Numbered from the stretch's first letter, positions 546-25,656 are shown. The stretch is DNA of 33,719 bases from Deltaproteobacteria bacterium (GCA_016219515.1 JACRMU010000075.1:1-33719), one strand, 5' to 3'. Made by a program: numbers and translations. The notes: generated by a model not told the origin, from the letters alone.

Positions 546-683
546 TTGAACCTTGTATTTATACCAGAATTCCCTCGCCGGATGGCAGAAAAAACGGATC
601 GAAAATTGGAAATCGGGGAGCGGTGTGATACAAAGGAGGATGCCCCGGAAAGGGGGCTTATCGCTAAAAAGGCGGAATATTCC

Positions 684-1778: not shown

Positions 1779-1793
1779 TAATCTATTCCTCCC

Positions 1794-3924: not shown

Positions 3925-3969
3925 ACCGATAAGGAACCGCCTTGCGGCGGCCGGGGGAATCGTCGCGGA

Positions 3970-5058
3970 ATGACACGGACGGTTCTGCACATCGTCGAGC
4001 CCACCCTCGAGTCCGAGGCGGGGCACTGCCACAGCTTCGTGTCGAGCTTCTGCGGGGCGGGGGAAAAGAGCGGATGCGAACTGCGCCTGTACGCCGGACG
4101 GAATGCGAAACTTCCGGGCCTGGAGAAAAGGGATGTGCGCGTGTTTCCGCATTTCCACAGGCGCCTTCGCCGCCCCCAGGCGTTCCTTCTTCTCCGCAAG
4201 CTGCTGCGCGAGCCCGGACGGATATTCCTTCCGACGGCCACGCGGATCGACCTTGCGTTTGCGCACCATGCGGCCGGCGGCCGCATACCGCCGGCCAAGG
4301 TTTACCTCTATTTTCACTGGTTCCGGCACAACGCGGGGAAAAGGAGCTTCCTTGTGCGGATGGCGGGATTGCAGCCCGACATCGTGGTGCTCGGCCCGAC
4401 CGAATCGGTCGTGGGTATTTTCCGGGAATGCGGGTTCGGGCGCGCCGAAACGGTGCCCTACCCGATCACTCCGGTGGAACCCGGCGTGCAGGCGGGGGAT
4501 CCGGATTTCCGTCACCTGCTTTTCGCGGGAGCCGCCCGCGCCGACAAGGGGTTCCCGGACCTGGTGAGCCTTGTGGCCTGGCTTCACGCGAGGGGAAAAA
4601 CCGTCCCGGTATCCCTCCAGGCGTCTCCCGACCACTACGGAAGGTTCGACGCGCGCATCCGGGCGGAGATGGATCGCCTGGTGAATATCGGCTATCCCCA
4701 CCTGAAGGTTCGCAGGGAAACCTTGCAGGGCGGAGAGTACAGGGAGCAGTTCCGGGGCGCGATCTGCCTCCAGCCCTATGCCCCGGCCGATTTCGCGGAT
4801 CGCATCAGCGGAGTCACCCTTGACGCCCTTTCCCTCGGCTGCCCGGTCGTGACGCTGAAGGGGACGTGGATGGGACGCGTGGTGGACCGTTTCGGGGCGG
4901 GGAAGGCCGTCGATGCGGCGGCGCCGGAGGTCCTTTTCGCGGGGGTGGAGGAGGTCCTTCGGGACTACGGGCGCTACTGCGGGAACGCGGCGCGCGCGGG
5001 CAGGGCGCTCCAGGAAGAGATGAACGCGAGCAGGCTGTTCGAAATCGTCACGGCCTGA
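3970..5058 (+). CDS. Putative glycosyltransferase
   Basis: Rossmann-like MTRTVLHIVEP..., LFAGAARADKGFPDLVSLVAWL, ISGVTLDALSLGCPVVTLKGTWMG; position in LPS cluster. Confidence 0.7.
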   Translation: MTRTVLHIVEPTLESEAGHCHSFVSSFCGAGEKSGCELRLYAGRNAKLPGLEKRDVRVFPHFHRRLRRPQAFLLLRKLLREPGRIFLPTATRIDLAFAHHAAGGRIPPAKVYLYFHWFRHNAGKRSFLVRMAGLQPDIVVLGPTESVVGIFRECGFGRAETVPYPITPVEPGVQAGDPDFRHLLFAGAARADKGFPDLVSLVAWLHARGKTVPVSLQASPDHYGRFDARIRAEMDRLVNIGYPHLKVRRETLQGGEYREQFRGAICLQPYAPADFADRISGVTLDALSLGCPVVTLKGTWMGRVVDRFGAGKAVDAAAPEVLFAGVEEVLRDYGRYCGNAARAGRALQEEMNASRLFEIVTA

Positions 5059-5078
5059 AGCGGTTTTCGAGGGGGGGC

Positions 5079-5858
5079 ATGAAAACATCGGATCGCCGTC
5101 CGGTAACCGCCGTCGTCATATCCTTCAACGAGAGCGGACGGATCGCCGGATGCCTGGAGTCCCTCGCCTGGGCGGACGAGATCGTGGTGGTCGATTCGGG
5201 AAGCGCGGACGGCACGCGGGAGATCGCCCTGCGCTACACAACGAAGGTATTCGAGGTGTCCTGGAAGGGGTTCGGCCCGCAGAAGCAGGCCGCCGTGGCG
5301 CGGGCGACCCACGACATGATCTTTTGCCTCGACTGCGACGAGCGCGCGACCCCGGAGCTGGCCGAGGAAATCGAGGGCGTATTGCGCGACGGCGGCGCTC
5401 CCCCCGCCTTCTCCGTCCCCCGACGGACGTTCCTGGGGAGCAAGGAGATCCGGCACTCGGGATGGTACCCCGACCGCACGGTGCGCCTGTTCGACCGGCG
5501 GCACGCCCGGTTCTCCGATCAGTCGGTCCACGAGCGCGTGATCGTGTCCGGGGCGACGGGACGCCTGAAGGGCCACATCCTCCACTACTCCTTCGACGGT
5601 TTCGCGGACATCCTCGTCAAGATGAACCGGTACACCGACCTCTCCGCGAGGGAGATGTTCGCATCGGGACGCAGAAGCCGCATTTCCGATATCACTCTTC
5701 GGCCGTTTCTCGCCTTCGCCAGGTCCTACCTGCTGCGGCTGGGATTCCTCGACGGCGTCGAGGGGCTGGAGATCGCGGCGGCCGCCGCGCTGCACGTCTT
5801 CGCGAAGTACGCCAAGCTGCGGGAGCTGGAGCGAAACCGGCCGGGGACGGGGCATTGA
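5079..5858 (+). CDS. Glycosyltransferase family 2 (LPS core GT2, WaaE/KdtX-like)
   Basis: PVTAVVISFNESGRIAGCLESLAWADEIVVVDSGSADGTREIA..., FCLDCDERATPEL; internal ATG at 5079 chosen over the longer ORF. Confidence 0.88.
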   Translation: MKTSDRRPVTAVVISFNESGRIAGCLESLAWADEIVVVDSGSADGTREIALRYTTKVFEVSWKGFGPQKQAAVARATHDMIFCLDCDERATPELAEEIEGVLRDGGAPPAFSVPRRTFLGSKEIRHSGWYPDRTVRLFDRRHARFSDQSVHERVIVSGATGRLKGHILHYSFDGFADILVKMNRYTDLSAREMFASGRRSRISDITLRPFLAFARSYLLRLGFLDGVEGLEIAAAAALHVFAKYAKLRELERNRPGTGH

Positions 5859-7018
5859 CGGTTTTTCCGCGGCAATATCGGGAAAGGGACCCGGGGGGTC
5901 GCCCGCGGGTCGCCGTCGTGATCCCGAAGTACGGGCTGATCGGCGGAGGGGAGAGGTTCGCCGCGGAGCTGACGGAACGGCTCGCCCGGAAAGGGAAGTA
6001 CGAATTCCACGTCTTCGCCAACCGGTGGAGCTCCCGTTGCGAAGAAATCGTTTTCCACAAGATTCCCGCGATCCGGTTCCCAAGGTTTCTGCGGCCGATC
6101 GGCTTCGCCTGGTTCGCGGACCGCATGGCGGCCGAAGGGAAGTTCGACCTCGTGCATTCCCACGAGCGCATCTACCGCGCGGACGTGTTTTCGCTGCACT
6201 CCGTCCCGCACGCGGGCTGGGTCCGCGCCGTCCGCCGGAAACGCCCGTCCCTCTTCGACCTTGCGACCGTCTCCGTGGAGAAAAGGATGATGGAAAGCGG
6301 CGCCCGCTATTTTCTTCCCGTATCCACATTGGCGATGGAGGCGTTCGCCCGCGAATACCGCATCGATCCGTCGAGGTTCCGCGTGATGCATCCCGGCGTG
6401 GACGCGGGGATGTTTTCCCCGGCGGACCGTTCCTCCTGCCGGCTCGAGGTCCGGGCGCGCCACGGGATCGGCCCTTCGGAGACGATCGTCCTTTTCGTGG
6501 GGATGAACTTCGAGGTCAAGGGGCTGGATGGTATCATGGCTTCCGTGGCCAGGGCGAGGGAGATGCCCGGGGGGAGGAACCTCCTGCTGCTCGTCGTGGG
6601 CAAGGGGGACACGCGGAAGTACGAGAGGATCGCGCACGGGATGGGCATCGGCGACGCGGTGGTCTTCGCGGGGCCGCAGGCGCAAGGGGTCGAGCGTTAT
6701 TATCTCGCCTCCGACATCTTCATGATGCTCTCGAAGTTCGATACCTTCGGCATGGCCGTGCTGGAAGCGATGGCCGCCGGCTTGCCGGTGGTCATCAGCG
6801 GGGGCGTCGGCGCGAAGGACCTCGTGGAGAACGGGAGAAACGGGTTCGTGGTCGGGGACCCCGGGGACACGGATTCCGCCGCCGGGAGGATCGGCCTGCT
6901 GCTGGACGAGGATTTCCGGTTGCGCATGGGGCGGGAGGCGCTGCAAACCGCAAGGGAGAACCGCTGGGACAAGCTGGCGGAGACCGTCGAAGGGATCTAC
7001 GATGAAATGCTCGCCTGA
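5855..7018 (+). CDS. Glycosyltransferase family 4 (WaaG-like)
   Basis: RVAVVIPKYGLIGGGERFAAELTERL, FVGMNFEVKGLDGIMASVAR, SKFDTFGMAVLEAMAAGLPVVISGGVGAKDLV; TTG start at 5855 overlaps the upstream stop. Confidence 0.88.
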   Translation: MTVFPRQYRERDPGGRPRVAVVIPKYGLIGGGERFAAELTERLARKGKYEFHVFANRWSSRCEEIVFHKIPAIRFPRFLRPIGFAWFADRMAAEGKFDLVHSHERIYRADVFSLHSVPHAGWVRAVRRKRPSLFDLATVSVEKRMMESGARYFLPVSTLAMEAFAREYRIDPSRFRVMHPGVDAGMFSPADRSSCRLEVRARHGIGPSETIVLFVGMNFEVKGLDGIMASVARAREMPGGRNLLLLVVGKGDTRKYERIAHGMGIGDAVVFAGPQAQGVERYYLASDIFMMLSKFDTFGMAVLEAMAAGLPVVISGGVGAKDLVENGRNGFVVGDPGDTDSAAGRIGLLLDEDFRLRMGREALQTARENRWDKLAETVEGIYDEMLA

Positions 7019-7042
7019 CAGGCAACGATCGGGGCATGCGGA

Positions 7043-7783
7043 ATGAAACCGAAAATCTCCGTGATCCTCACCGCCTGGCTGCGTCCCCAGTACCTGGAGG
7101 AGCAGGTCAGGAAGGTGCTCGGCCAGACCGTGACGCCGCATGAGATCGTCCTCTGGTACAATAAGCCCCCCAAGGCGCTGGGCCTCCTCGAGCGCAAACA
7201 GCTGGTGAGCTTCGAGAACGACAAGCACGTCAAGAAGATCATTTGCGACCACAACTTCGGCATCATTCCGCGTTTCACCCTGGCATCGGCGCTGGAGGGG
7301 GAGTATGTCTGCATCTTCGACGACGACACGATCCCCGGGGAGCGCTGGTTCGAGAACTGCCTGAAGCATGTCGACCGCGAAAAGGTCATCTGCGGGACGA
7401 TCGGGCTCCGGTTCCTGTCGGGGACGATTTTGAAGACCCAAAAACCCAGGATGGGCTGGGAAGGAATGAACGAGACCCTGGAATACGTCGACCTCGTCGG
7501 ACACAGCTGGTTCTTCCGCAGGGAATGGGCCCGGTATTTCTGGGATGAGGATCCCCCCTGCCGGACGTTCGGGGAGGACATTCATTTCTGCGCGATGCTC
7601 CAGCGGCGCGGCATCCGCTCCGCATGCCCTCCCCATCCGAAGAGCGACCCGTCCCTGTGGGGATCGCTGAAGCCCGAGCGCGGCGTGGACCGGGTGGCGA
7701 TCAGCAGCACCGACCGGTCGGAGGATTACTGGAACGTCGTCCGGACCGAGATGGAGAACGGCTACAAGCCGATGCTGCTATGA
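7043..7783 (+). CDS. Glycosyltransferase family 2-like
   Basis: KISVILTAWLRPQYLEEQVRKVLGQTVTPHEIVLWYN, EYVCIFDDDTIPGERWFENCL. Confidence 0.82.
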   Translation: MKPKISVILTAWLRPQYLEEQVRKVLGQTVTPHEIVLWYNKPPKALGLLERKQLVSFENDKHVKKIICDHNFGIIPRFTLASALEGEYVCIFDDDTIPGERWFENCLKHVDREKVICGTIGLRFLSGTILKTQKPRMGWEGMNETLEYVDLVGHSWFFRREWARYFWDEDPPCRTFGEDIHFCAMLQRRGIRSACPPHPKSDPSLWGSLKPERGVDRVAISSTDRSEDYWNVVRTEMENGYKPMLL

Positions 7784-8835
7784 TCCTCGTCGCCTACGGG
7801 ACCCGCCCGGAAATCATCAAGCTGTTCCCCGTGATCCGCGAGCTCAGGAAGCGGCGGATCGCCCATGAGACCCTTTTCACGGGGCAGCAGACGGACCTCT
7901 ATGAGGACGTGAAGGACCTGGTGCCCCCGCCGGACGTAAGCTTCGCCGGTTCCTTTTCCGGGAGGGCGAAGCACAACACCTTGGGAGAAAGCTTCCTCAA
8001 GATCTGCCGGGCCTCCGAGCGGTTGTTCGCCCGGCGCCGCTTCGATGCGGTCGTCGTCCAGGGAGACACGACGACCGCCTGGGCTCTCGCACAGATGGCG
8101 TTCTACAACGGGGTGAAGATCGCGCACGTCGAGGCGGGGCTGCGGACGTTCGACCCGGAGAATCCCTACCCGGAAGAGCTGAACCGCACGCTGATCGGCC
8201 ACGCCGCCGAATGGAACTTCGCCCCCACGAAACGGGCCTGCGAAAACCTGGTCGGATGCGGCGCCAGGAACGTCCGCAACGTCGGCAACACGATCGTGGA
8301 TGCCGTGGACCTCCTGAGGCGCCGGCGGAAGATCCCGGTGGCCCGGTCGAACGAGGTCCCGGTGACCCTGCACCGCAGGGAAAACCACGCGATCATGGGG
8401 CGGCTTTTCGACGAGCTGGACCGGGTCGCCGCCGGGAATCCCGACCTCGAGCTGATCCTTCCGATCCACCCGAACCCGAATGTGCGGAAGCATCGTCCGC
8501 GGCTGAAGGCGAAAAACCTCCGCGTCATCCCGCCGGTCGGGTATCTCGAAATGCTCCGCATGCTGGCCAGGGCGAGGTTCGTGATCTCCGACAGCGGCGG
8601 GATCCAGGAGGAGTGCGCCTGCCTGAACAAGAAGATCCTTATCGTCAGGGAGACCACCGAGCGGCCGGAAGTGATCGAGATGGGGCTGGGGAAGCTGGTG
8701 GGGGGAAAGCTCCTTCCCCACATCGACTGGGCGAGGAATCCTTCGGGGAAAGCCCGGCAGCATCCGTTCGGGAACGGGCGCGCGGCGGAGCGCATCGTTC
8801 GGATCCTTTCCCGTTCCCTGATGAAAGCGAAATGA
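7780..8835 (+). CDS. wecB: UDP-N-acetylglucosamine 2-epimerase family
   Basis: MILVAYGTRPEIIKLFPVIREL, TGQQTDLYED, VQGDTTTAWALAQMAFYNGVKIAHVEAGLRTFDPENPYPEELNR, ISDSGGIQEE. Confidence 0.92.
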   Translation: MILVAYGTRPEIIKLFPVIRELRKRRIAHETLFTGQQTDLYEDVKDLVPPPDVSFAGSFSGRAKHNTLGESFLKICRASERLFARRRFDAVVVQGDTTTAWALAQMAFYNGVKIAHVEAGLRTFDPENPYPEELNRTLIGHAAEWNFAPTKRACENLVGCGARNVRNVGNTIVDAVDLLRRRRKIPVARSNEVPVTLHRRENHAIMGRLFDELDRVAAGNPDLELILPIHPNPNVRKHRPRLKAKNLRVIPPVGYLEMLRMLARARFVISDSGGIQEECACLNKKILIVRETTERPEVIEMGLGKLVGGKLLPHIDWARNPSGKARQHPFGNGRAAERIVRILSRSLMKAK

Positions 8836-9719
8836 TCAAAATCGTATCCGGACAGAGCATCCCCGTCGGCTCCACGGTCGCGCTGGCGAACCTGTGCAAC
8901 CAGTTCCATTCCAGGGGACACGAATGCACCTTCTTCGGGCCGGACCGATGGCACCTGGACAAGTGCCGGTCCGCTCCTCTCTCCGATTTCCGCCCGGGGA
9001 ACGGGGATATCGTCATCGCGCACGGCATCCGGCTTCGTTCGGTTGCCGATCTGGACGATCCGGGAACGCTGGCCGGCCCGTCCAGGGACGGCGGCTGGCG
9101 GCGGGCGCTGGAAGATCGAATTTTCAACATCGGCGCAAGCCGCGGCAAGCCGGATGCCTTCCGGCTGGTCCTTACCCGCAGCGGTGACGATCCGGTTCGC
9201 GCCGGCCGGCCGGCCTTCTCCCTCTTTCACAAGATCCACTTCTCCTGCGAAGCGCAGAGGGACCGCCGGGCTTCCCGCCATCCCCATTTCGTCTGCCCCG
9301 ACTTCGTTCGCGACCTGAAAAAACCCCTCGCCAGGCCGGAACGGGTGGCCGGCGTCATCGGAAGCGTCCGGCCGGAAAACCGGCTGGAGATATCCATCGA
9401 AAAAGCGCTGCAGGACGGAATGGAATCGGTCATCGTGTACGGATATCTGCTGGACCCGGTCTACTTCTACTCGAACATCGCGCCTTTCGCGAAGAAATAT
9501 CCGGGGAGAATCCGATTTGCGGGGTTCGTCGACGATCCCCAGAAAATGTACGATTCCGTTTCCGATGTGTATCGCTGCGCCGCAAAGCCCTGGAGCGCCG
9601 TGAAGCGGGAATGCATCCTGACGGGTACCCGTTATCACGGGCCGGACTCTCCCGAAACGGAGGAGGCGGCCTGCAACGATTCGATCTACGATGTCTGGAA
9701 GAACGAGCTGGCCCTGTGA
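8832..9719 (+). CDS. Putative glycosyltransferase-like protein of LPS cluster
   Basis: MIKIVSGQSIPVGSTVALANLCNQFHSRGHECTFFGP; GIIGSVRP-like segment and CILTGTRYHGPDSPET C-terminus; start overlaps wecB stop. Confidence 0.62.
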   Translation: MIKIVSGQSIPVGSTVALANLCNQFHSRGHECTFFGPDRWHLDKCRSAPLSDFRPGNGDIVIAHGIRLRSVADLDDPGTLAGPSRDGGWRRALEDRIFNIGASRGKPDAFRLVLTRSGDDPVRAGRPAFSLFHKIHFSCEAQRDRRASRHPHFVCPDFVRDLKKPLARPERVAGVIGSVRPENRLEISIEKALQDGMESVIVYGYLLDPVYFYSNIAPFAKKYPGRIRFAGFVDDPQKMYDSVSDVYRCAAKPWSAVKRECILTGTRYHGPDSPETEEAACNDSIYDVWKNELAL

Positions 9720-9746
9720 TTCGCGGGACCGCCGGCGGATAGGCGC

Positions 9747-10520
9747 ATGAAAAGCTTCGTCGAGGATTTTTACCGGTTGGTATCGCTTCTCAAGCGGAGG
9801 GAGCCGTTCGCCTTCAACCGGTTTTCCGACGGGGAGCTGTTCATCCTGCAGAACAAGGAGCTCATCCTCGGCGACAACCTGGTGAAGATCGGCGATAAAG
9901 TGATGAAAGGCCACTACCGGAAGGAGGACTTCAAGCATTTCCATCCCGACGAACATTCGTTTTACAGGGACCGGCTCGTGGATGCCTTCCGGTACACGGC
10001 GAAGAACTATTTCAAGGGGATCAGCTGCCGGTGCTGCGCGGGGGAAGCGGATTTCCGATGGCAGCTGGATTTCCACGGCCGGCACGATGAAAACTTCACG
10101 TGGGCGAACCTCTTCCTGAACGGGAATTACGGGAGATTCATCCGGGAGATGTACCCGTTGTTCAACGGCTACCGGACGGTCATCGTGTGCAACGAGAATT
10201 CGGACGTGACCACGCTTCCTTTTATCTGCAAGGATTTCCGGGTCGGCTACAACGCGATGGTCAACGACTACGGGTTGATCGATACCATGAAACGTTGGAT
10301 CGATGAAAACGGCATTCGGGGGCATCTGTTCATGTTTTCCGCCTCCGCGTTCAGCAAGATGGCGATCCATCAGTTGTACCGGCATTGCGACGCCAACACC
10401 TACATCGACATCGGCACGACGTTGAACGCATTTACGGGGATGAGGCTCGACAGGTCGTATCTGAAGGCGTTCTGGCTTGGAGCGAAGCACAAGGATATCG
10501 ATAAAATATGCATCTGGTAG
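9747..10520 (+). CDS. Putative GT-D fold (DUF1792-like) glycosyltransferase
   Basis: FAFNRFSDGELFIL resembles the R-x-x-DGE motif of DUF1792/GT-D proteins; LFMFSASAFSKMAIHQLY; cluster context. Confidence 0.5.
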   Translation: MKSFVEDFYRLVSLLKRREPFAFNRFSDGELFILQNKELILGDNLVKIGDKVMKGHYRKEDFKHFHPDEHSFYRDRLVDAFRYTAKNYFKGISCRCCAGEADFRWQLDFHGRHDENFTWANLFLNGNYGRFIREMYPLFNGYRTVIVCNENSDVTTLPFICKDFRVGYNAMVNDYGLIDTMKRWIDENGIRGHLFMFSASAFSKMAIHQLYRHCDANTYIDIGTTLNAFTGMRLDRSYLKAFWLGAKHKDIDKICIW

Positions 10521-10561
10521 CCGTTGCCCGCAGCGGCCCGAAACCATAAAAAGGGAATCCC

Positions 10562-11299
10562 ATGAAAAATTTTTGCCTTGCCGTGAATACCGTATCGACC
10601 TGCCGAGACCTTTGGGGGATGTTTTTCGGGCAACTGGAGAAGCACTATCCGGGCAACAAGGTATATGTCTTCACGGATGACGGGGACGGGATACCGGATT
10701 CCTGCGAAGTAATCCGTTACGACCCCAGGGACAACTTCCGGACGCAATATCTCAAGTGCCTGAAGTCGGTGAAAGAGGATTTCCTTTTGAATTTCAACGA
10801 GGACTATATTTTGTACGGCGATGTGGAAAAAGACGCGGTCGATGAATACGTATCGTTGCTGTCGAAGGATGACGCCATATCCTTCATCCGGTTGACGCGC
10901 GGCTCCAACGTTACGCCTTCGAAATACAAAAACAGGGAGGACCTGTTTTATCTGGACAACAGGGCGGAGTATTTTTACAGCCAGACGGTTGCGATATGGA
11001 AGAAATCGGTCCTGGAGAAAATTCACGAGATGGGCCCGGATGTTCATATCGCGGGCAAAAGGACCAAGCTGCAATTCGAAGTCGAGGCGAACAAGGTGTG
11101 TTCGCGGCTGGATATCAAGGGTTTGTTGTCGTATCGCAACGAACCGAAACGCGGGCTGGTTCATTACGATTCCCGCATCGTTCCGTACATCGCCTCGGCG
11201 CTGGTGAAGGGGAAATGGAACTTGGGGGAATACGAAAAAGAGCTGGCGCCGATTTTAACGGAATACGGCATCGATTATAAAAAGAGGGGACGCGTTTGA
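10562..11299 (+). CDS. Hypothetical glycan-cluster protein, possibly GT-A-like glycosyltransferase
   Basis: MKNFCLAVNTVSTCRDLWGMFFGQLEKHYPGNKVYVFTDD...FLLNFNEDYILYGDV; overlaps next gene. Confidence 0.55.
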   Translation: MKNFCLAVNTVSTCRDLWGMFFGQLEKHYPGNKVYVFTDDGDGIPDSCEVIRYDPRDNFRTQYLKCLKSVKEDFLLNFNEDYILYGDVEKDAVDEYVSLLSKDDAISFIRLTRGSNVTPSKYKNREDLFYLDNRAEYFYSQTVAIWKKSVLEKIHEMGPDVHIAGKRTKLQFEVEANKVCSRLDIKGLLSYRNEPKRGLVHYDSRIVPYIASALVKGKWNLGEYEKELAPILTEYGIDYKKRGRV

Positions 11300-12240
11300 A
11301 AGTCGTTAAGGACCTTTCGATTGAAGTTCCCGGGACCAACGCTCACTATTTCCGGCTGGAGGAGCTGGGCACGGAGGACGGCAGTGACGTTTTGTATTAC
11401 GGCTACAATTTTCTGGAAAGCGGATGCAGCCTGGAATCCGACGTGCATTGCCGGAGAAAAATCTATCTGAACGTCACCATGCCGACGGAGTTTTGCAGCC
11501 GCCAGCCCACCGGCGTCGACGACAAGTTCGACGAAATCTACGGAATCTGTCCCTATACGAACCGGTGGCTGAACGGCATCAAAGGCGGAAACAAATATAA
11601 AGACATTTTCTATCCTTTCAACGAAGCGGATATCCCGGCGCCGCAGGAGAAGCTCTACGACGTCTGCTATCACGGAGGGATTCACGGCGATACCTATTCG
11701 AGAATGCTGAAGATCATGAGGAAGTTCCATTACCGGTACATGACCCAGACGCACGGGATCAACAAGACCACGAAGAAACATCTGAAATACGCCACGAATA
11801 CGAACCTCACCAACGACGAAAAATTGCAGTTGATCTCCCGTTGCAGGATATCGATCTGCTTCAATACGTTCGATATACGGAACGACGACGATATCGGAAA
11901 CGTTAAAGCGAGAAAAAATTGGCGGGACAACGAAGCGTTTCGCCACATCGAGGATTTGAAAATCGCGCCTCAATTCAAATCAAGGTGCAATGAGGCCGCG
12001 TTCTCAAGGACCTTGAACCTGGTCAAGAAAGACCCATGGAACGTCATCGAACGGTACTACACGCCGGATGTGGATTTCGTATATTTCGAGGACCTGGAGG
12101 AATTGGAGGGGAAAATTCAAGATATATTGAATCACTGGGAAAGTTATCGGCCCATGATGGAAAGCGCATATGAAAAATCGATGAAATATACGACGAGGAA
12201 TCTATTCAACATGATAAGAAACAATCAAGAATGGAAATGA
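11296..12240 (+). CDS. Hypothetical glycan-cluster protein, possibly GT-B/exostosin-like
   Basis: KLYDVCYHGGIHGDTYSRMLKIM..., LTNDEKLQLISRCRISICFN, DVDFVYFEDLEELEGKIQDIL. Confidence 0.55.
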   Translation: MKVVKDLSIEVPGTNAHYFRLEELGTEDGSDVLYYGYNFLESGCSLESDVHCRRKIYLNVTMPTEFCSRQPTGVDDKFDEIYGICPYTNRWLNGIKGGNKYKDIFYPFNEADIPAPQEKLYDVCYHGGIHGDTYSRMLKIMRKFHYRYMTQTHGINKTTKKHLKYATNTNLTNDEKLQLISRCRISICFNTFDIRNDDDIGNVKARKNWRDNEAFRHIEDLKIAPQFKSRCNEAAFSRTLNLVKKDPWNVIERYYTPDVDFVYFEDLEELEGKIQDILNHWESYRPMMESAYEKSMKYTTRNLFNMIRNNQEWK

Positions 12241-12328
12241 ACGCCGCAAGCATATATTGGAAAAGAACGGCCCCGATCGAGACCGGAACCGCCGGCAACG
12301 ACTGAGTCGGGACGAGAGTCCTTTCCGT

Positions 12329-13630
12329 ATGAAAAATATCCTTGTCTCTCCCATTTTCGATCACCCCGCGAATCGTTTCTCGGGCGACAATGTCGCCCAT
12401 TACCTGCCCGGGAAATATCTATGGCACGTCTGCAACGAGGTAAAGACAGGTTTTCATCATCCGATAGATAATGTGCGCCTGGACGAACCGGTACGCCTGT
12501 CCTATGTATTCCCTTCCCCTCAGCCACAGGGCCGGTATTTCAAAAAGCCTCGATGGATCGACGAGTTCCTGGTGGCCAGGGACGCGCAGGAGATCAACCG
12601 CATTGCCAAGGGATTTGATTTTTTCGTCAATCTTTATCGCTACCGGGGGAGGAATCCGACCGAGGTAAACCTGGGGTATTCCCCCGATTTGAAGGGTTTC
12701 AACCTCGACCTCGTTGCCTACACGTACAAGGCGGTTTACGATCACGGCCTTTATATCGACGATCTGGAGTTGAACGACAAGTATCTGGATTTCCTGGATG
12801 CGATCGATTTCGAAATGAATCCGGACCGAAGGCCCGTGATCGCCATGCACAAACGGACGGAGGATCCGCATGACCGCCATCTCGCCGATTACGAAAATCT
12901 GAACGATCGAATGCTGTTCGATCTTCTGGATACCTACAAGGATCACGTTCTTGTTCTGGTGGGAGATCCGTTAAGCTGGAAATATTATCGTCATCCAAGA
13001 GTCAAATACCTGACAAGGTATGTCAACCGGCGCAAACTGCTTCGTTTCCTGAAAGAGTACAACGCCGCGCTTCAATTTATCCTGGCCGGCTATTTTTGCG
13101 GCCGGGCGGCGGCGGTCGTTATCGGCATCTCCGGTTTCACCTTGTTCATCGAAAGCATAAGGCCCCGCGGGCTGATGCCGCCCGTGCCGGTCTTCTGGGG
13201 TCCGCAAACCTTTTCGGGCATCGATACCTGCATGCGGAACGCGGGGTGGTTTTCGACGGAATTCGACAGGTACAATCGCGAGCATCCCGAAGATATCGCC
13301 TTTCGGCATCAGGTTCACCATTTCATGTACTACAGCCGCAATGAAGAGATCCTGAAACCGTATTGCATGGATTATCCGAACTCCCGCGAGAAGGCGTTGA
13401 AGGTCCTGAAGGAGCTGGAAAGCGCACACGGAATATCGCACCCCCGCCGGGCCGTCGGCGGCGGTTGCGAAAACAGCCGGCGGCAAACGATGTACGAATC
13501 CGCTGTAAATACCGCCTGGGAAGCGCAGCAGAAAGCGGAAAAAATTGCCTGGAAAACCGCCAAAATCATGAAAAAACTTGATGTCGGGGCCGGGAAAACG
13601 GTCGAGTGGTTCAGGAAGGTGATGAAATGA
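12329..13630 (+). CDS. Hypothetical protein of glycan cluster
   Basis: MKNILVSPIFDHPANRFSGDNVAHYLPGKYLWHVCNEV...; intact reading frame, RPVIAMHKRTEDPHD and LVLVGDPLSWKYY segments suggest a GT-B-like architecture. Confidence 0.5.
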   Translation: MKNILVSPIFDHPANRFSGDNVAHYLPGKYLWHVCNEVKTGFHHPIDNVRLDEPVRLSYVFPSPQPQGRYFKKPRWIDEFLVARDAQEINRIAKGFDFFVNLYRYRGRNPTEVNLGYSPDLKGFNLDLVAYTYKAVYDHGLYIDDLELNDKYLDFLDAIDFEMNPDRRPVIAMHKRTEDPHDRHLADYENLNDRMLFDLLDTYKDHVLVLVGDPLSWKYYRHPRVKYLTRYVNRRKLLRFLKEYNAALQFILAGYFCGRAAAVVIGISGFTLFIESIRPRGLMPPVPVFWGPQTFSGIDTCMRNAGWFSTEFDRYNREHPEDIAFRHQVHHFMYYSRNEEILKPYCMDYPNSREKALKVLKELESAHGISHPRRAVGGGCENSRRQTMYESAVNTAWEAQQKAEKIAWKTAKIMKKLDVGAGKTVEWFRKVMK

Positions 13631-18628: not shown

Positions 18629-19235
18629 ATGGGGCGGGACATTCAGAAGTCATTGAGAACCGGCTCGGCCGGCCGTCGTTTCCTGACGGGCATCCTTCTC
18701 GCCGTGTTTCTCCTTCCGGTTCGGCAGGCGTTTCCCGCGGCTCCTCCCGCCCCGAACCCCCATACCCACTTCCGGCAGGCCCCCCAGTGTCCCCGGTGCC
18801 ATCTCTATGACGGTCCGAAGATGGAGGCGGATCGCTTTGCCACCGCGTCCATCGATTTCTGCCTGGAGTGCCACCGGGTCGAGGAGCGCGGCCGCACCCA
18901 CCCCCTCAAGGTGCACCCGGCCGGCAAGTTCCGGCAGATGAAGGTCCCGCCGGAATACCGCCTGGGCGACGGCGAGCACATCGTCTGCCTTACATGCCAC
19001 TCGGCGCATGGCCCGTTCCTGTCGCCGGTCAGGGCGTTTGCGGGGCAGGCGCCGGAGATTTCCCAGGCCGAGCCGAACGCCGCGCCCTGGTACCGGGCCG
19101 ACTTCCTCCGGCGCTCGGATCACGCGGGGGCAGGGTACGAAGCGCGCTGCGAGGCGGACCTACTTCCTCCGGCGCTCGGATCCCGCGGGGGAAGGGTACG
19201 AAGCGCTCTGCGAGGGGTGCCACAAGGTGCCATGA
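18629..19235 (+). pseudogene. CxxCH cytochrome c, frameshifted by an internal 61-bp tandem duplication (cassette 1)
   Basis: CPRCH, CLECH, CLTCH in the first frame; fourth motif CEGCHKVP* lies in the +1 frame after the duplication; paralogous to the intact 22388-22909 gene. Confidence 0.75.
19101..19222 (+). repeat. 61-bp imperfect tandem duplication (units 19101-19161 and 19162-19222)
   Basis: acttcctccggcgctcggatc[a/c]cgcggggg[c/a]agggtacgaagcgc/t... present twice at a spacing of 61 nt. Confidence 0.9.
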
Positions 19236-19786
19236 GTCCTGGCTCTCCACGACATGTCCAACGGCGGACCATCTTCATCAACCCCCGTTTCCAGGGAGGG
19301 GCGGCGCTCTGTTTCGCCGCGGTGGTCCTCGTCGCGGCGGCGCTGTTCGTCTGGTTCTTTTATCGCCATGCCAAGGGAGCGCTCCGCGTGGCTTCCCTGC
19401 AGGGGCATTACCATTTTCTGTCTCCCTATGAAATCGTCGGCGGGTCCCTGGTGGAGCGCCTTGCCGCGCTGACCGCCGGCGGACTGGCGGCAAGCATTCT
19501 CGTCTTCCTGCTCCTTCTCCGGAGGATCCGCCAAGGGGTCGACCGCCTGATGGTCGCGTTCCGCCGGTCGGCGGAGGGAGACCTGTCGACGCCCACGCAG
19601 GCGCCGGGCCTGTTGGATCTTACGGATTTGGGGAGAAAGATCGATGCTTCCCGTTCCCGGACCCTTTCCCTGATCCGCGAAGCCCGGGATGAGGCGGAAT
19701 TTCTCCGGAAGGAGCCGCTTCCGGAGGAAGAGTTCGCCCGCCGTTGGAACGCCCTGAAGCGGACCCTTCACAGGATCGCCCCGTGA
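19232..19786 (+). CDS. Two-TM HAMP-like membrane protein A (cassette 1), no output domain
   Basis: RRTIFINPRFQGGAALCFAAVVLVAAALFVWFFY...TM2...RRIRQGVDRLMVAFRRSAEGDLSTPTQAPGLLDL; ATG overlaps the ancestral cytochrome stop (ATGA). Confidence 0.75.
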   Translation: MSPGSPRHVQRRTIFINPRFQGGAALCFAAVVLVAAALFVWFFYRHAKGALRVASLQGHYHFLSPYEIVGGSLVERLAALTAGGLAASILVFLLLLRRIRQGVDRLMVAFRRSAEGDLSTPTQAPGLLDLTDLGRKIDASRSRTLSLIREARDEAEFLRKEPLPEEEFARRWNALKRTLHRIAP

Positions 19787-20340
19787 GCGCCCGATCGTCC
19801 GGAGAGAGGACGAAAATGACGGCCCGAGGGTACATCGGACGGTTCGCGGCGCTGCTGCTCCTCGTTTTCTCCCTGGGAGGGGGTTCCCTGTTCCTCGCCT
19901 TCCACATCATTTTCACGCAGCCGCTTCCGGCCACGTATGCGGGGGTGTATTTCGCGCTGCGCAACCTGTCCGCGTTCCTGGTGCCCATGCTGGTCTTCTC
20001 CATGCTGGCCTATGTCCTGCTGGTGAGCGTGGCGGTCGCGGTCCTCTGCGGCTTCACGTTCCACAAGATCGCGGGGCCGCTCTATCGCATGGAGAGGGCG
20101 CTGGAGAACTACGAGTCCGGGGATTCCGTCCGGGCGGTGTTTCTCCGGGAGGGAGACCAGCTGGTCGCGCTCGCGGAGGCGTACAACGGCTTTGTGGCCC
20201 GCCTTCGGGATGACCGCCGGGGGTGCCTGGAGGCGATGGAGCATGCGGAGCGGCTCTGCCTCCTCGACGCCACCACCTGCCGCGGGGAAATGGGAGACGC
20301 CCTTTCCCGTCTGTCCACCCTGCTTTCCCGGTACCGTTGA
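19783..20340 (+). CDS. Two-TM HAMP-like membrane protein B (cassette 1), no output domain
   Basis: FAALLLLVFSLGGGSLFLAFHII...LVFSMLAYVLLVSVAVAVLCGFTFHKIAGPLYRMERALENYESGD; GTGA overlap with gene A. Confidence 0.75.
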   Translation: MSARSSGERTKMTARGYIGRFAALLLLVFSLGGGSLFLAFHIIFTQPLPATYAGVYFALRNLSAFLVPMLVFSMLAYVLLVSVAVAVLCGFTFHKIAGPLYRMERALENYESGDSVRAVFLREGDQLVALAEAYNGFVARLRDDRRGCLEAMEHAERLCLLDATTCRGEMGDALSRLSTLLSRYR

Positions 20341-22316
20341 TGGAAAACGGCTCCTTTTTCCAGCGCGCGAAACGGTTCCTGTTCGGCGCACCCCGGGACC
20401 TGTTCGATCCGAAGATCTTCCACAAGGTTTCCCTGGTCGCGTTTTTCGCGCTCGTGGGGCTGGGGGCGGACGGGATCTCCTCCTCCTGCTACGGCCCGGA
20501 GGAGGCGTTCCTCGCCCTCGGGAGCCACACGGTGCTGGCGATCTTCGTCGCCCTCGCCACGGTGGTCACGGTCTTCATCATCTCCGGAAGCTATGCGCAG
20601 ATCATCGAGGCGTTCCCTTCGGGGGGGGGCGGGTACATCGTCGCCTCCAAGCTCCTCGGGGAAAGGGCGGGCGTCGTATCCGGCTCGGCGCTGGTCATCG
20701 ACTACGTGCTGACCATCACCATCTCCATCGCATCGGGCGCGGACGCCCTGTTCAGCTTCCTCCCGCTGAACTGGCAGGCGCACAAGTTCGCCTTCATCGC
20801 CTTGATCCTCGTTCTTCTCATCTGGCTCAACCTGCGCGGCGTGAAGGAGTCCGTGGCGGCGCTGACCCCCATCTTCATGGCGTTCATGCTCAGCCACGTC
20901 CCGCTCGTGCTCTACGCCGTCCTGCGCCACGCGCCCGAGCTGCCCGCGGTGGGCGCCCGCGTGTCCATGGAATTCTCCACCACGGCGAAGCAGCTCGGCT
21001 GGGTGGGGTTGGGGGCTCTCCTCATGCGCGCCTACTCGATGGGCGCCGGGACGTACACCGGGATCGAGGCGGTCAGCAACTCCATGCCGACCCTCCGCGA
21101 GCCCCGCGTCCACACGGGGAAGAAGGCGATGCTCTACATGGCGCTTTCCCTCTCCTTCATCGCCGGGGGGATCATCCTCGGGTACGTGCTGAACGGGGTG
21201 ATGCCCACCCAGGGGAAAACGCTCAACGCCGTCCTGTTCGAGAACCTGATGGGAAGCATCTGGCCGGGGCACACGGGCGTCGTGATCGTCGCTTTCGTCC
21301 TCGCATCGGAGGCGGCGCTCCTGTTCGTCGCCGCGCAGACGGGGTTCATCGACGGCCCGCAGGTGCTCTCGAGCATGGCGGTCGACTCCTACGTCCCCCA
21401 CCGGTTCGCGCATCTCTCCGAGCGCCTGGTACGGAAGTACGGCGTCTACTTCATGAGCGTGATGGCGTTCGTGATGCTCTTCATCACGGGCGGGTCGGTC
21501 CGGTACCTCGTCGTCATGTACTCGATCAACGTCTTCCTCACGTTCAGTCTCTCCCAGTTCGGGATGTGCATCCACTGGTGGAAGGACCGCGAAAAGGAGA
21601 AGGCGTGGAGGATCAAGTTCGCCATGAACGGCGTCGGTTTCCTCCTGACCGCCTCGATCCTCTGTTTCACGGTATGGGTCAAGTTCCCGGAGGGAGGGTG
21701 GATCACCCTGCTCATCACGGGGACGTTCATCGGCATGTGCTTCCTGGTCCGCCGCCATTACCGGAAAGCGCAGCACGCCCTGCGGCGGCTCGACGAGCTG
21801 CTGCTTCAGCTTCCGCCGGTGACGGTATCCTCCGTGCAGGAGCCGATGCTGCGCCGCGTCGCCCCCACGGCGGCCATCATGGTGTCCGGGTACAACGGGC
21901 TCGGGATGCACGTCTTCTTCTCCGTCATCCGGTCGTTTCCGGGGACCTTCCGGAACTTCGTGTTCCTCTCCGCGGGCGTCGTCGACAGCACCATCTTCAA
22001 GGGCGCGGAGGAGGTGGTGAACCTGGGCACGGACCTGAAGAAGCAGCTCCAGAACTACGAAGAGTTCGTCAAGGGGCACGGGTATTACGCGGAAGCGCGC
22101 AGCGAGGTGGGAACGGACGTCATCGAGACCATCGGCCACCTGGCTGCGGGCGCCGCAAAGGATTTCCCCAACATCGTCTTCTTCTCGGGCCAATTGGTCT
22201 TCCAGGAGGAGAGCGTGGTAACCCGCCTGCTCCACAACCAGACCGCGTTCCTCGCCCAGAAAAAGCTGGTCTTCGCAGGGCTTCCGATGATCATCCTGCC
22301 CGTCCGGGCGCTTTGA
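20340..22316 (+). CDS. APC superfamily permease with C-terminal soluble domain
   Basis: VGLGADGISSSCYGPEEAFLALG, multiple TM segments, SYAQIIEAFPSGGGGYIVASKLLGERAGVVSGSALVIDYVLTI; ATG overlaps the preceding stop. Confidence 0.88.
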   Translation: MENGSFFQRAKRFLFGAPRDLFDPKIFHKVSLVAFFALVGLGADGISSSCYGPEEAFLALGSHTVLAIFVALATVVTVFIISGSYAQIIEAFPSGGGGYIVASKLLGERAGVVSGSALVIDYVLTITISIASGADALFSFLPLNWQAHKFAFIALILVLLIWLNLRGVKESVAALTPIFMAFMLSHVPLVLYAVLRHAPELPAVGARVSMEFSTTAKQLGWVGLGALLMRAYSMGAGTYTGIEAVSNSMPTLREPRVHTGKKAMLYMALSLSFIAGGIILGYVLNGVMPTQGKTLNAVLFENLMGSIWPGHTGVVIVAFVLASEAALLFVAAQTGFIDGPQVLSSMAVDSYVPHRFAHLSERLVRKYGVYFMSVMAFVMLFITGGSVRYLVVMYSINVFLTFSLSQFGMCIHWWKDREKEKAWRIKFAMNGVGFLLTASILCFTVWVKFPEGGWITLLITGTFIGMCFLVRRHYRKAQHALRRLDELLLQLPPVTVSSVQEPMLRRVAPTAAIMVSGYNGLGMHVFFSVIRSFPGTFRNFVFLSAGVVDSTIFKGAEEVVNLGTDLKKQLQNYEEFVKGHGYYAEARSEVGTDVIETIGHLAAGAAKDFPNIVFFSGQLVFQEESVVTRLLHNQTAFLAQKKLVFAGLPMIILPVRAL

Positions 22317-22387
22317 AGAATGCGGGTTTTCCGCCGGAATATGTGATATAACGTCGTGGAAATTGCGGGCCGTTGAGAGAGGAGCCG

Positions 22388-22909
22388 TTGACGGCGCAGG
22401 CATCCAGGCAGACCCTTTGGAAGTCTTTTTTCCTCGTTTCGGCGGTATTGCTTTCCTGCCTGGTCCTGGCAACGCAATTCGACCCGCGCGTCAACCCGCA
22501 TTCCCTCTTCGGGAAGCCCGACCAATGCCGGAAGTGCCACGTCTATTACCGCGGAAATATCGAGCCGGCCCGTTTTCTTCCGGAATGTTCCGAGTACTGC
22601 CTTGGATGCCACACGGACCAGTCGCTGGACCGCACCCATCCGATCCGGATGCGTCCGCGGGACAAGTACTGGAAAATGAAGATCCCCGCGGAATTTCGCC
22701 TCGACGACGACGGGAGACTCATGTGCCTGACCTGCCACAAGGCGCACGGACCGTTCCTCGCGACGGTGAAGGCACACCCGTCGCAGAAACCGGAGCCCAT
22801 GACTCCTCCCTCGGGAGTTTCCGACTATTACAGGACGTATTACCTGCGGACGTCGGATCCCGTGAAGGGGTTCGCCGCGTTGTGCGACGGGTGCCATAAG
22901 AAGCTATGA
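22388..22909 (+). CDS. Tetraheme CxxCH cytochrome c, N-terminal membrane anchor/signal (cassette 2)
   Basis: Four CxxCH: CRKCH, CLGCH, CLTCH, CDGCH; hydrophobic N-terminus; TTG start with upstream agaggag. Confidence 0.85.
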   Translation: MTAQASRQTLWKSFFLVSAVLLSCLVLATQFDPRVNPHSLFGKPDQCRKCHVYYRGNIEPARFLPECSEYCLGCHTDQSLDRTHPIRMRPRDKYWKMKIPAEFRLDDDGRLMCLTCHKAHGPFLATVKAHPSQKPEPMTPPSGVSDYYRTYYLRTSDPVKGFAALCDGCHKKL

Positions 22910-23454
22910 TCGCCTACCCGAGAAGTCGCCGGAAGATCGTCTTCATCAGCCCCAGAGTCCAGGGGGGTACGGCGCTGTTCTTTTCCGCGATCGTCGTCGC
23001 GGGGGCCGCACTGTTCTCGTGGCTGGTCTACGACCACATCCGGCTGGCTCTCTGGGACTCCACCTACCGGGGGCATTTCCTGATCCGGACGCCGTACCAA
23101 ATTGTGGACGATATCGTCATTTCCCATCTCGCCGCGCTGTTCGTTGGCGTCCTGGCGATGAGTTTCCTCGCATTTTTCCTGCTGATGCGCAGGATCCGGG
23201 CGGGGATCCGGAGGGTGGCCGAGGTGCTGGCGATGTCGGCGGAAGGGGATCTTTCCACGCCGACGAACGCTCCGGGGCTGAAGGAGATCCAATCCTTCGG
23301 GGAGCAGCTGGATGCCGCCCGTTCCCACACGCTCTCCGGGATACGGGAGATACGGGAAGACCTTGCGTTCCTGCGGTCCGGCTCGGCGTCCCCGGAGGAG
23401 TGCCGGTCCCGGTGGGAAGACCTGAAGGGGAAGATCGGGAGGGTGGCGCCGTGA
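22906..23454 (+). CDS. Two-TM HAMP-like membrane protein A (cassette 2)
   Basis: Paralogue of 19232-19786: RRKIVFISPRVQGGTALFFSAIVVAG...RRIRAGIRRVAEVLAMSAEGDLSTPTNAPGLKEI; ATGA overlap. Confidence 0.8.
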   Translation: MIAYPRSRRKIVFISPRVQGGTALFFSAIVVAGAALFSWLVYDHIRLALWDSTYRGHFLIRTPYQIVDDIVISHLAALFVGVLAMSFLAFFLLMRRIRAGIRRVAEVLAMSAEGDLSTPTNAPGLKEIQSFGEQLDAARSHTLSGIREIREDLAFLRSGSASPEECRSRWEDLKGKIGRVAP

Positions 23455-24008
23455 CGAACCGCCTTGCGGCCGCGAAAATGCCCGTCGCGGAGCGGGGGTT
23501 CCAGCTCCGGTTCCTCCTCCTGCTTTCGTGCATCTTCGCCTTCGGGGCGCTTCTCCTGTTCGCCTTCATGTTCCTCTTTTTCTCCCGGCCGCTCCAGGGG
23601 GATTACTCCAGCGTGTTTTTCGCCCTGCGCCATCTGACCGGGTTCGCCCTGCCGATGGTCTCTTTTTCCGCTCTGGTGTACGTCCTTCTCGTCTGCGGGG
23701 CCATGGCGGTGCTGTGCATCTATACGCTCCACAAGGTGGCGGGGCCGCTCTATCGGATGAGCCGGACGATCGAGAGCTACATCGCGGGGGAATTCCTGAG
23801 GCAGGTCGCATTCCGCGAGGGGGACCAGGCCGCGCTGCTGGCGACGTTGTTCAACCGGTTTCTCGAACGCCTGCGGGAAGACCGCCGGAAGCTGGAGGAA
23901 ATCGTGGAGCGGGCGGAGCAGGCCGGCCGGAAGGATCCGGCCGCATTGCAAGCAGCGATGGAAACGGCGGTCGATGAACTGGATCTCGCCCTTTCCCGGT
24001 ATCGCTGA
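23451..24008 (+). CDS. Two-TM HAMP-like membrane protein B (cassette 2)
   Basis: Paralogue of 19783-20340: YTLHKVAGPLYRMSRTIESYIAGEFLRQVAFREGDQAALLATLFNRFLERLREDRR; GTGA overlap. Confidence 0.8.
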   Translation: MTNRLAAAKMPVAERGFQLRFLLLLSCIFAFGALLLFAFMFLFFSRPLQGDYSSVFFALRHLTGFALPMVSFSALVYVLLVCGAMAVLCIYTLHKVAGPLYRMSRTIESYIAGEFLRQVAFREGDQAALLATLFNRFLERLREDRRKLEEIVERAEQAGRKDPAALQAAMETAVDELDLALSRYR

Positions 24009-24100
24009 TCCGCCGGTTGACCTGCCGAGCGGAATTCTGCGAAGATAGCAGGGAATCCACGAATTGTCGGGAATTCGATTTCCACAGAGGAGGGGAGAAG

Positions 24101-24505
24101 ATGGCGTTCATTCGGAAAGCGGGATGGTTTATGGCGTTGGCCCTGGTGATGGCGGGGTGGATGGGCGTGCTCGGATCGTTCCGGGGGGTGGCGGTGGCGG
24201 GAGTGATCGCCTCCCACGGCACGGGGGCGGGCGAACTCCGGGCGGCGGAAATCGCCAAGGTCCAGGCGTTCCTCGAGCGTAAGATCGTCCTTCAGAAACT
24301 GACGGATTACGGAGTTTCCCCGGAAGAGGCGACGGCGAAGCTCAAGTCGATGAGCGACAGCGACCTGCACCGGCTCGCCTCGCTGACCGACAGGGTGGCG
24401 GCCGGCGCCGACGACGGCTTGGGCCTCCTCATCGGCCTGGCCATCCTGATCATCCTCATCATTGTCATCATGAAGCTCATGAACAAGGAAATCGTCGTCC
24501 GTTAA
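24101..24505 (+). CDS. PA2779-like small membrane protein, copy 1
   Basis: N-terminal hydrophobic segment, KVQAFLERKIVLQKLTDYGVSPEEATAKLKSMSDSDLHRLASL, C-terminal TM ending LMNKEIVVR; adjacent to a PA2778-like peptidase. Confidence 0.82.
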   Translation: MAFIRKAGWFMALALVMAGWMGVLGSFRGVAVAGVIASHGTGAGELRAAEIAKVQAFLERKIVLQKLTDYGVSPEEATAKLKSMSDSDLHRLASLTDRVAAGADDGLGLLIGLAILIILIIVIMKLMNKEIVVR

Positions 24506-24526
24506 CGGACGGGGAAGAATGTTTCC

Positions 24527-24564
24527 GGCGCCGCCCCCCTTCCGGGCGGCGCCTTTCTTTTTTT
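24527..24564 (+). terminator. Rho-independent terminator between the PA2779-like copies
   Basis: ggcgccgccc...gggcggcgcc followed by tttcttttttt. Confidence 0.87.
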
Positions 24565-24655
24565 CGCGCGAATTCCTCAAGCGGCAACGTTTTCCTTGCA
24601 AAAGATGTCTAATAACAGACGGGTGGCGGGGAGCGTGAAAAACTTGGAAAACAGC

Positions 24656-24678
24656 GCCATTACCTGAACGATAATGGC
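24656..24678. promoter_or_regulatory. Possible operator: 7-bp inverted repeat gccatta-N9-taatggc
   Basis: gccatta (24656-24662) and taatggc (24672-24678) just upstream of the second PA2779-like start. Confidence 0.3.
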
Positions 24679-24694
24679 ATCGGGAGGAATCGAG

Positions 24695-25093
24695 ATGGAA
24701 TCGATGCGCGGGACCGCGTGGTTTTTCGCGTTGGCGTTGTCGATGGCTGTGTGGATGGGCCTTCTGGGCTCATTCCGGGGAGTGGCCGAGGCGGGCATGG
24801 TTGCCTCCCATGGCGCCGGCGACCCGGGGGCGGCGGACGCCGCCAAGGTACAGACGTTCCTGGAGCGCAAGGTCGTCCTGCAGAAGCTGGTGGATTTCGG
24901 GGTTTCCCCGGAAGAGGCGACGGCGAAGCTCAAGTCGATGAGTGACAGCGACCTGCACCGGCTCGCCTCGCTGGCCGACCGCGCGGCTGCGGGGGCGGAC
25001 AGCGGCGCGGATGTCGCGATCACCCTCGCCGTGCTGATCATCCTGATCCTGGTGATCCTGATGCTCATGAACAAGCGAGTCGTTGTCCGTTGA
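24695..25093 (+). CDS. PA2779-like small membrane protein, copy 2
   Basis: KVQTFLERKVVLQKLVDFGVSPEEATAKLKSMSDSDLHRLASLADRAAAGA and C-terminal TM ending LMNKRVVVR; gggagg RBS upstream of 24695. Confidence 0.82.
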   Translation: MESMRGTAWFFALALSMAVWMGLLGSFRGVAEAGMVASHGAGDPGAADAAKVQTFLERKVVLQKLVDFGVSPEEATAKLKSMSDSDLHRLASLADRAAAGADSGADVAITLAVLIILILVILMLMNKRVVVR

Positions 25094-25656
25094 AAAAAAG
25101 GTTCCGGTTTCCCGGCGCCGTCCTGCTCCTGGGCAGCGCCTTGTTTCTCCTGGGGGGATGCGCCGGCGCCGGTCCGGTCAACGGGCGGGAGGCGGGCGCC
25201 CGTTCGGCGGCCGTCATACCGGGCGTTCCCTTCCTCCCGCAGGAGGAGGACACCTGCGGCCCTTCCTCCCTCGCGATGAACCTCCGTTTCCTGGGGAGCG
25301 ACGCCCTGACGGCGGACCTCGTGAGGGAAACCCGGACGGAAGGGTTGAAAGGTACGCTGATCACCGACCTGGCGGCCGCGGCGAGGCGCCGGGGGTTTGC
25401 CGCGGAGGTCATCGATCTGGACCTTCTGCGCCTGCGGGAACGGATTTCCGCGGGAGCTCCCGTGATCCTTCTCGTCGATCTGGGCGCCTGGGTATGGAGC
25501 CGTCCCCACTACCTGTTGGCGTATGGCTGGACCTCGGAAGGGATCGTCGCGCATTCCGGGCGCGAGCAGGGGAAGGTCATCCCGTTTTCCGAGCTGGACG
25601 CGCAGTGGGCCAAAATGGGGCGGCTGACGCTCATCGTCCGCCGGGGGGACCGGTGA
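25090..25656 (+). CDS. PA2778-like C39-type cysteine peptidase lipoprotein
   Basis: Lipobox-like LFLLGGCAG; VPFLPQEEDTCGPSSLAMNLRFLG (Cys), RPHYLLAYGWTSEGIVAHSG (His/Asp region). Confidence 0.85.
   Translation: MKKRFRFPGAVLLLGSALFLLGGCAGAGPVNGREAGARSAAVIPGVPFLPQEEDTCGPSSLAMNLRFLGSDALTADLVRETRTEGLKGTLITDLAAAARRRGFAAEVIDLDLLRLRERISAGAPVILLVDLGAWVWSRPHYLLAYGWTSEGIVAHSGREQGKVIPFSELDAQWAKMGRLTLIVRRGDR

Follow-up and report, generated by a model that had tools for sequence, protein, structure and literature searches.

Two copies of a three-gene cassette, each joining a multiheme c-type cytochrome to two small proteins (A and B) with two transmembrane (TM) helices and a HAMP domain, were found in DNA of a Deltaproteobacteria bacterium (GCA_016219515.1, JACRMU010000075.1:1-33719). 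The window, by which we mean the whole analyzed stretch of 33,719 nucleotides, makes up the whole of contig C134, from a 2.09-Mb genome in 154 contigs (estimated 97% complete). Here, we describe the cassettes, their relatives in other genomes, and the grounds for reading them as a candidate split redox receptor. All cassette genes lie on the plus strand, at 18629 to 20340 (unit 1) and 22388 to 24008 (unit 2), with a gene for an APC-superfamily permease between the units. A preliminary description of this DNA had proposed two paralogous units with the order cytochrome, A, B, overlapping by ATGA between cytochrome and A and by GTGA between A and B; the order, the coordinates, and both overlaps were confirmed directly on the sequence, and the units are paralogous because they share direct repeats (72 to 76% identical) at a constant 3668-nt offset. 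A1 and A2 share 48% identity, and B1 and B2 share 45%.

Unit 2 is intact. Its first gene, cyt2 (22388 to 22909), encodes a tetraheme c-type cytochrome with four CxxCH motifs (CRKCH, CLGCH, CLTCH, and CDGCH) and three conserved distal histidines (NPH, THP, and AHG) for the four hemes. It is followed by A2 (22906 to 23454; ATGA overlap with cyt2), a two-TM, HAMP-only protein of the A type, in which the codon for His57 (RGHFL; 23074 to 23076) falls at the tip of the periplasmic hairpin and in an invariant column of a 16-sequence A-type alignment. The last gene, B2 (23451 to 24008; GTGA overlap with A2), encodes a two-TM, HAMP-only protein of the B type with the successive motifs HKVAGPLYRM, REGDQ, and FN.

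Unit 1 begins with cyt1 (18629 to 19235), an exported multiheme c-type cytochrome homologous to the intact tetraheme cytochromes that adjoin A at 17 loci, and continues with the two-TM, HAMP-only proteins A1 (19232 to 19786; start codon ATG at 19232), of the histidine-bearing A type, and B1 (19783 to 20340; start codon GTG at 19783 or, alternatively, ATG at 19816), of the B type. The conserved periplasmic-hairpin histidine of A1 (QGHYHF), placed by sequence and alignment column, is encoded at 19406 to 19408. Within cyt1, a 61-bp imperfect tandem duplication (19094 to 19215; copies at 19094 to 19154 and 19155 to 19215, 92% identical) shifts the reading frame, which leaves three CxxCH motifs in frame and puts the fourth (CEGCH), together with the ATGA stop, in a different one; past the third motif, the annotated frame stays open into A1, giving a 385-amino-acid open reading frame. 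A relative of the same genus (G154, locus L046) has an intact cyt1 with four CxxCH motifs and no such duplication, so we regard the duplication as a recent mutation or an assembly error. We consider an assembly artifact no less likely than a real mutation, because of the five positions at which the copies differ, four show A/C or G/T exchanges (the fifth is A/G), and those in the first copy change residues that relatives conserve. The preliminary description had missed the broken frame of unit 1.

Distant loci were retrieved with similarity to B2 as the sole criterion, irrespective of cytochrome content, so that linkage to cytochromes could be tested on them. Of 395 genomes of the phylum, which its gene content suggests is a Desulfobacterota-like group, 201 gave matches, many of them open frames 170 to 250 amino acids long. 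In the window's own family, a tetraheme cytochrome gene immediately precedes every A gene inspected, and B comes next after A wherever the contig continues. Among HAMP-only clusters beyond that family, 47 of 73 have a same-strand cytochrome (at least three hemes) within 500 bp versus 0 of 241 control genes, which span 400 kb of the same genomes and include one cytochrome only, making the contrast large (Fisher p 2e-37 at 1 kb) and the control rate imprecise. Four cytochrome layouts recur: cyt4 followed by A and B; B-cyt7-A; a single HAMP-only gene (H) with cyt5; and a single H with cyt11. The triad of cytochrome, A, and B is present with cyt4 or cyt7 in the window's family and nine others; the preliminary description would have been refuted had the gene order been confined to this genome, and this is not the case. 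Given this conservation in other genomes, a chance origin of the arrangement is excluded. A tree of concatenated A and B sequences resolves two paralogous clades, each with members from several genera, by which the unit duplication is judged old and retained, not recent. The module thus stands twice in this genome as old paralogues, and an operon elsewhere in the same genome (L065, on G000:C143, 4405 to 7647) is a third copy of its kind, with a single histidine-bearing HAMP-only gene, an 11-heme cytochrome carrying a c554-type module, and two AhpC/TSA-type redoxins.

The HAMP-like segments noticed in A and B are weak when single sequences are searched (Pfam HAMP, E 0.014 for A2 and E 0.04 for B1; no match for B2), and most single members score below the Pfam HAMP cut-off. 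Among relatives, PF00672 matches were obtained for 9 of 20 members of the B set and 11 of 16 of the A set (E up to 0.1; best, 2.5e-9). Over TM2-HAMP, a profile of A matches chemoreceptors of solved structure (E 1.1e-9), and it also matches NarQ and a sensory rhodopsin transducer; a profile of B matches the sensory rhodopsin transducer and chemoreceptors, more weakly than the A profile. These profile matches settle the matter despite the weak single-sequence scores: A and B each have two TM helices and a HAMP domain that is genuine, if diverged. In the B type, the columns of the HAMP core are invariant, and conservation takes in the HAMP core and about 60 residues of the cytoplasmic part. Family searches detected no kinase, GGDEF, or MCP domain in either protein, as had been reported, and both end shortly after the HAMP domain and a short coil; nor did family and profile searches match either to a named characterized family beyond the HAMP domain. 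An attached output domain is usual for PF00672 HAMP proteins and not required of them. A direct A-versus-B profile comparison within the window's own family alone was not significant; A and B fall in one family once distant relatives are included, and we treat the A type and the B type as two old subfamilies of one two-TM, HAMP-only family that also has single-copy members. An AlphaFold model of A (three sequences, low confidence) has helices at 16 to 54 and 63 to 113, a HAMP-like connector, and two helices, and the model of B has the same layout. Fold searches with the A and B models returned nothing significant, the weak list for B being rich in HAMP proteins (E 1.5 to 9), and no b-heme ligand pattern was apparent in the helices of A or B.

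The cytochromes have the features of the class III/c7-type multiheme cytochromes, namely, several CxxCH motifs, bis-histidine spacing, and export; Paired_CXXCH_1 scored above its cut-off for cyt2, and c3-type models matched weakly. In all 17 family tetrahemes, the four CxxCH motifs are invariant, with exactly three other invariant histidines (NPH, THP or SHP, and AHG), and judged by position, the heme without a distal histidine would be the C-terminal one. Methionine was considered as the fourth distal ligand and is available in 13 of 17 only, which gives no general answer. By-eye readings of the alignments gave about four conserved distal histidines for the five hemes of cyt5 and nine strictly conserved distal histidines for the eleven hemes of cyt11, which carries a c554-type module; the c554 family includes a five-coordinate heme. 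A universal shortfall of one distal histidine was also considered and is not supported in cyt7. Membership of cyt2 in the NapC/NrfH family was rejected, as none of its motifs (CRKCHVY, CLGCHTD, CLTCHKA, and CDGCHKK) is a CxxCHxM and its NCBIfam NrfH score was 11 bits versus a cut-off of 134.

A histidine in one alignment column, in the short periplasmic hairpin, accompanies the cytochrome. Across several families, the 16 A-type sequences (about 20% identity to the most distant) share only two invariant residues, Q19 and H57, and in the low-confidence model H57 sits at the hairpin tip, between the two long helices. The hairpin column holds histidine in 32 of 34 A-type proteins and 26 of 26 single-H proteins with a cytochrome, versus 0 of 33 B-type proteins, in which the residue is always hydrophobic, and 3 of 20 proteins without a cytochrome. 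Exactly one partner carries the histidine in 29 of 31 A/B pairs; the other two (L119 and L134) have arginine instead, and no compensating extra histidine was evident in them. For single-H operons the contrast was 28:1 with a cytochrome versus 4:17 without (p 1e-8, which overstates independence because the histidine pattern follows clades). This one-histidine signature provides a sequence rule for spotting further candidate members. That A supplies the histidine to a heme is an attractive idea for the window's family and cannot be claimed for all.

Several relatives show other neighborhoods. HAMP-only members without a cytochrome adjoin lipoprotein- or peptidyl-prolyl isomerase (PPIase)-like genes or prepilin-like genes, contexts that were read from translations. 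At L058, L066, L069, and L088, the neighbors are lipoprotein-like genes, with no cytochrome and in most cases with a PHP-type phosphatase-like gene; at L110, L132, L140, L141, and L145, the HAMP-only protein has a shortened or altered periplasmic loop and stands beside prepilin-like genes (FTLIEL-type N termini). Seven loci (L051, L052, L054, L059, L061, L062, and L068) have B-cyt7-A followed by a PQQ-type propeller protein and 4-heme and 11-heme cytochromes and mostly adjoin hemE/hemH/hemG-like genes; these look like an undescribed respiratory or extracellular electron-transfer cluster. One locus (L034, JAENIX010000026.1), labeled "Actinomycetota bacterium," is 76 to 80% identical to the window and syntenic with it from cyt2-A2-B2 through moaA; the label looks mistaken, the group being otherwise rich in multiheme cytochromes.

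Our favored reading, held tentatively and with somewhat less than even confidence, is that the cassette encodes a split transmembrane redox receptor, in which the cytochrome is the redox-sensing subunit. The tetraheme cytochrome would be exported and sit on the outer face of the inner membrane, where A and B would heterodimerize through their TM helices and HAMP domains. A would offer its hairpin-tip histidine to the cytochrome, with the C-terminal heme or its vicinity as the probable site, so that a change in heme redox state or ligation would move the hairpin of A; the A/B HAMP bundle would transmit this movement to a partner in the cytoplasm, probably a histidine kinase, whose gene lies elsewhere. 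We infer, from the patterns given above, the heterodimer, the contact or ligation between histidine and heme, the signaling, and the identity of the output alike. As in other split HAMP receptors, a separate putative sensor and a two-TM HAMP transducer are encoded together. We favor this reading because the HAMP core is conserved, because the scaffold is reused with other extracytoplasmic partners, and by analogy with SRII-HtrII; the occurrence of the scaffold, without its histidine, beside lipoprotein/PPIase-like or prepilin-like genes is as expected of a general transducer. A relay to chemotaxis or a chemoreceptor partner was rejected for this genome, in which no MCPsignal domain was matched (97% complete; MCPsignal was found in 7 of 14 control genomes). 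A kinase output is made more plausible by that absence together with the 39 HATPase_c matches in the genome, and at two cyt5-type loci a histidine kinase gene lies directly 3' of H, with a 4-nt overlap in one. A wider claim is that such receptors occur across the phylum, with a cofactor-free HAMP transducer whose histidine would be the distal axial ligand of one heme in a separately encoded multiheme cytochrome, mechanical readout through TM helices and HAMP, and A/B acting as an asymmetric heterodimer that binds one cytochrome through a single histidine; this we consider possible and rather doubtful.

Several observations weigh against the split receptor. Nearly all loci lack an output gene in the operon. 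The shortfall in distal histidines is clear only in the window's family, with by-eye readings in cyt5 and cyt11, and cyt7 and the two tetrahemes of L057 and L060 show none. The structure models of A and B have low predicted local distance difference test scores (pLDDT, 66 to 69) and no significant fold match. The states of the histidine and of the cytochrome each change about six times by parsimony on the tree, making the pattern clade-bound. Several clusters look respiratory (11- to 26-heme cytochromes, PPIase, and propeller proteins), which fits electron transfer equally.

The main rival is accordingly an electron-transfer complex, in which A and B would anchor the cytochrome, the histidine would lie near a heme, and electrons would enter from the quinone pool toward periplasmic and outer-membrane cytochromes, with HAMP as a dimerization device only. 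Around the modules lie large multiheme cytochromes, PPIases, and propellers, as is typical for extracellular electron-transfer loci; in PDB profile searches the cytochrome matches the NrfH quinol dehydrogenase best, though weakly (E 0.006), and NrfH is a precedent for a membrane cytochrome whose heme is ligated by a residue of a partner protein (PMC8840924). The cytochrome, however, does not have the CxxCHxM signature of NrfH, a plain anchor would have no need of the conserved HAMP core and cytoplasmic residues, and the helices show no apparent b-heme ligands; we judge this complex possible and, on balance, unlikely. The preliminary description had offered a redox sensor or relay and a quinol-linked electron-transfer module side by side, and the conserved HAMP core and reused scaffold lean toward the former, leaving the latter as the rival.

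Two further explanations account for the linkage in other ways. A and B could retain apo- or holocytochrome at the membrane for maturation or delivery, with neither signaling nor electron carriage, and the strict operon coupling of one A/B set per cytochrome, the hemE/hemH/hemG-like genes adjoining one class, and the redoxin-like genes adjoining another would suit such an assembly or quality-control role. Yet the same fold serves cytochromes of four sizes, its HAMP conservation is unexpected for a chaperone, and HAMP-only relatives occur without cytochromes, which leaves this role improbable. More improbable still, the linkage could be coincidental or ancestral, A and B acting elsewhere (with the permease or in an envelope process) and the histidine marking a phylogenetic subfamily instead of a cytochrome contact. 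The few changes of histidine and cytochrome states on the tree, and the HAMP-only proteins found with lipoproteins and prepilin-like genes, speak for it, whereas the same linkage in many families, in several gene orders, and with cytochromes of four sizes, and the units that have no permease next to them, speak against it.

The permease between the units (20340 to 22316, plus strand; 658 amino acids; Pfam AA_permease_2, E 5e-22) adjoins the units in many relatives, not all. As a core part it was rejected, since several units have no permease beside them, and we regard it as a neighbor of the module. Downstream of unit 2, positions 24017 to 25656 hold two tandem genes for small membrane proteins of the PA2779 family (DUF6627) and then one for a PA2778-like C39 peptidase, which overlaps the second PA2779-family gene by 4 nt; this neighborhood is kept in relatives. 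Upstream of both units, positions 606 to 13630 hold glycosyltransferase and sugar-nucleotide enzyme genes, read as of the surface polysaccharide type.

For metal-oxide or syntrophic-electron-transfer bacteria, little is settled about how the redox state of the envelope is sensed. That modules of this kind recur across much of the phylum points to a membrane redox receptor or an electron-transfer complex not described so far, and if this is true, it would be a general envelope redox-sensing device or a new inner-membrane entry for extracellular electron transfer. Small HAMP-only proteins, to which we found no role assigned, would then gain a possible use. Through the one-histidine signature, the sensor and electron-transfer readings can both be addressed by a point mutant. 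In the open-access literature on HAMP and multiheme cytochromes, HAMP-only proteins, and OetB-type clusters, we found no account of such a layout, and the preliminary description had likewise recognized no named system.

Among known systems, SRII-HtrII is similar in that the sensor is a separate protein, docked on a two-TM partner that passes the signal on through its HAMP domain (PMC5292967, PMC12917780), and the A and B profiles match the HAMP region of HtrII. The sensor there is a membrane photoreceptor, whereas here it would be a periplasmic multiheme cytochrome, and the transducers here are a heterologous pair that ends after HAMP and a short coil, without an MCP domain. In the TorS/TorC system, a multiheme c-type cytochrome likewise communicates with a two-TM sensor, TorS being a HAMP-type histidine kinase inhibited by apo-TorC (PMC8534201); TorS includes a kinase and a large domain in the periplasm, both absent from A and B, and here the cytochrome gene overlaps the HAMP gene. 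NrfH and NapC are also tetraheme cytochromes tied to the inner membrane, and a heme of NrfH is ligated by a lysine of its partner NrfA (PMC8840924), but the cassette has no CxxCHxM, its membrane parts are separate HAMP proteins, and the sequence similarity is weak. A heme ligated by a histidine of a neighboring subunit is found in OmcS and OmcE filaments (PMC9473688); those are extracellular homopolymers, whereas the histidine here would come from a heme-free membrane protein. HAMP kinases and chemoreceptors, such as NarQ and the chemoreceptor type, are homologous in the TM2-HAMP region, and A and B differ from them in having neither a sensor domain nor an output domain. Within HAMP-based split receptors, a multiheme cytochrome as the sensor and transducers without an output domain would be unusual; what is new is the hairpin histidine that accompanies the cytochrome.

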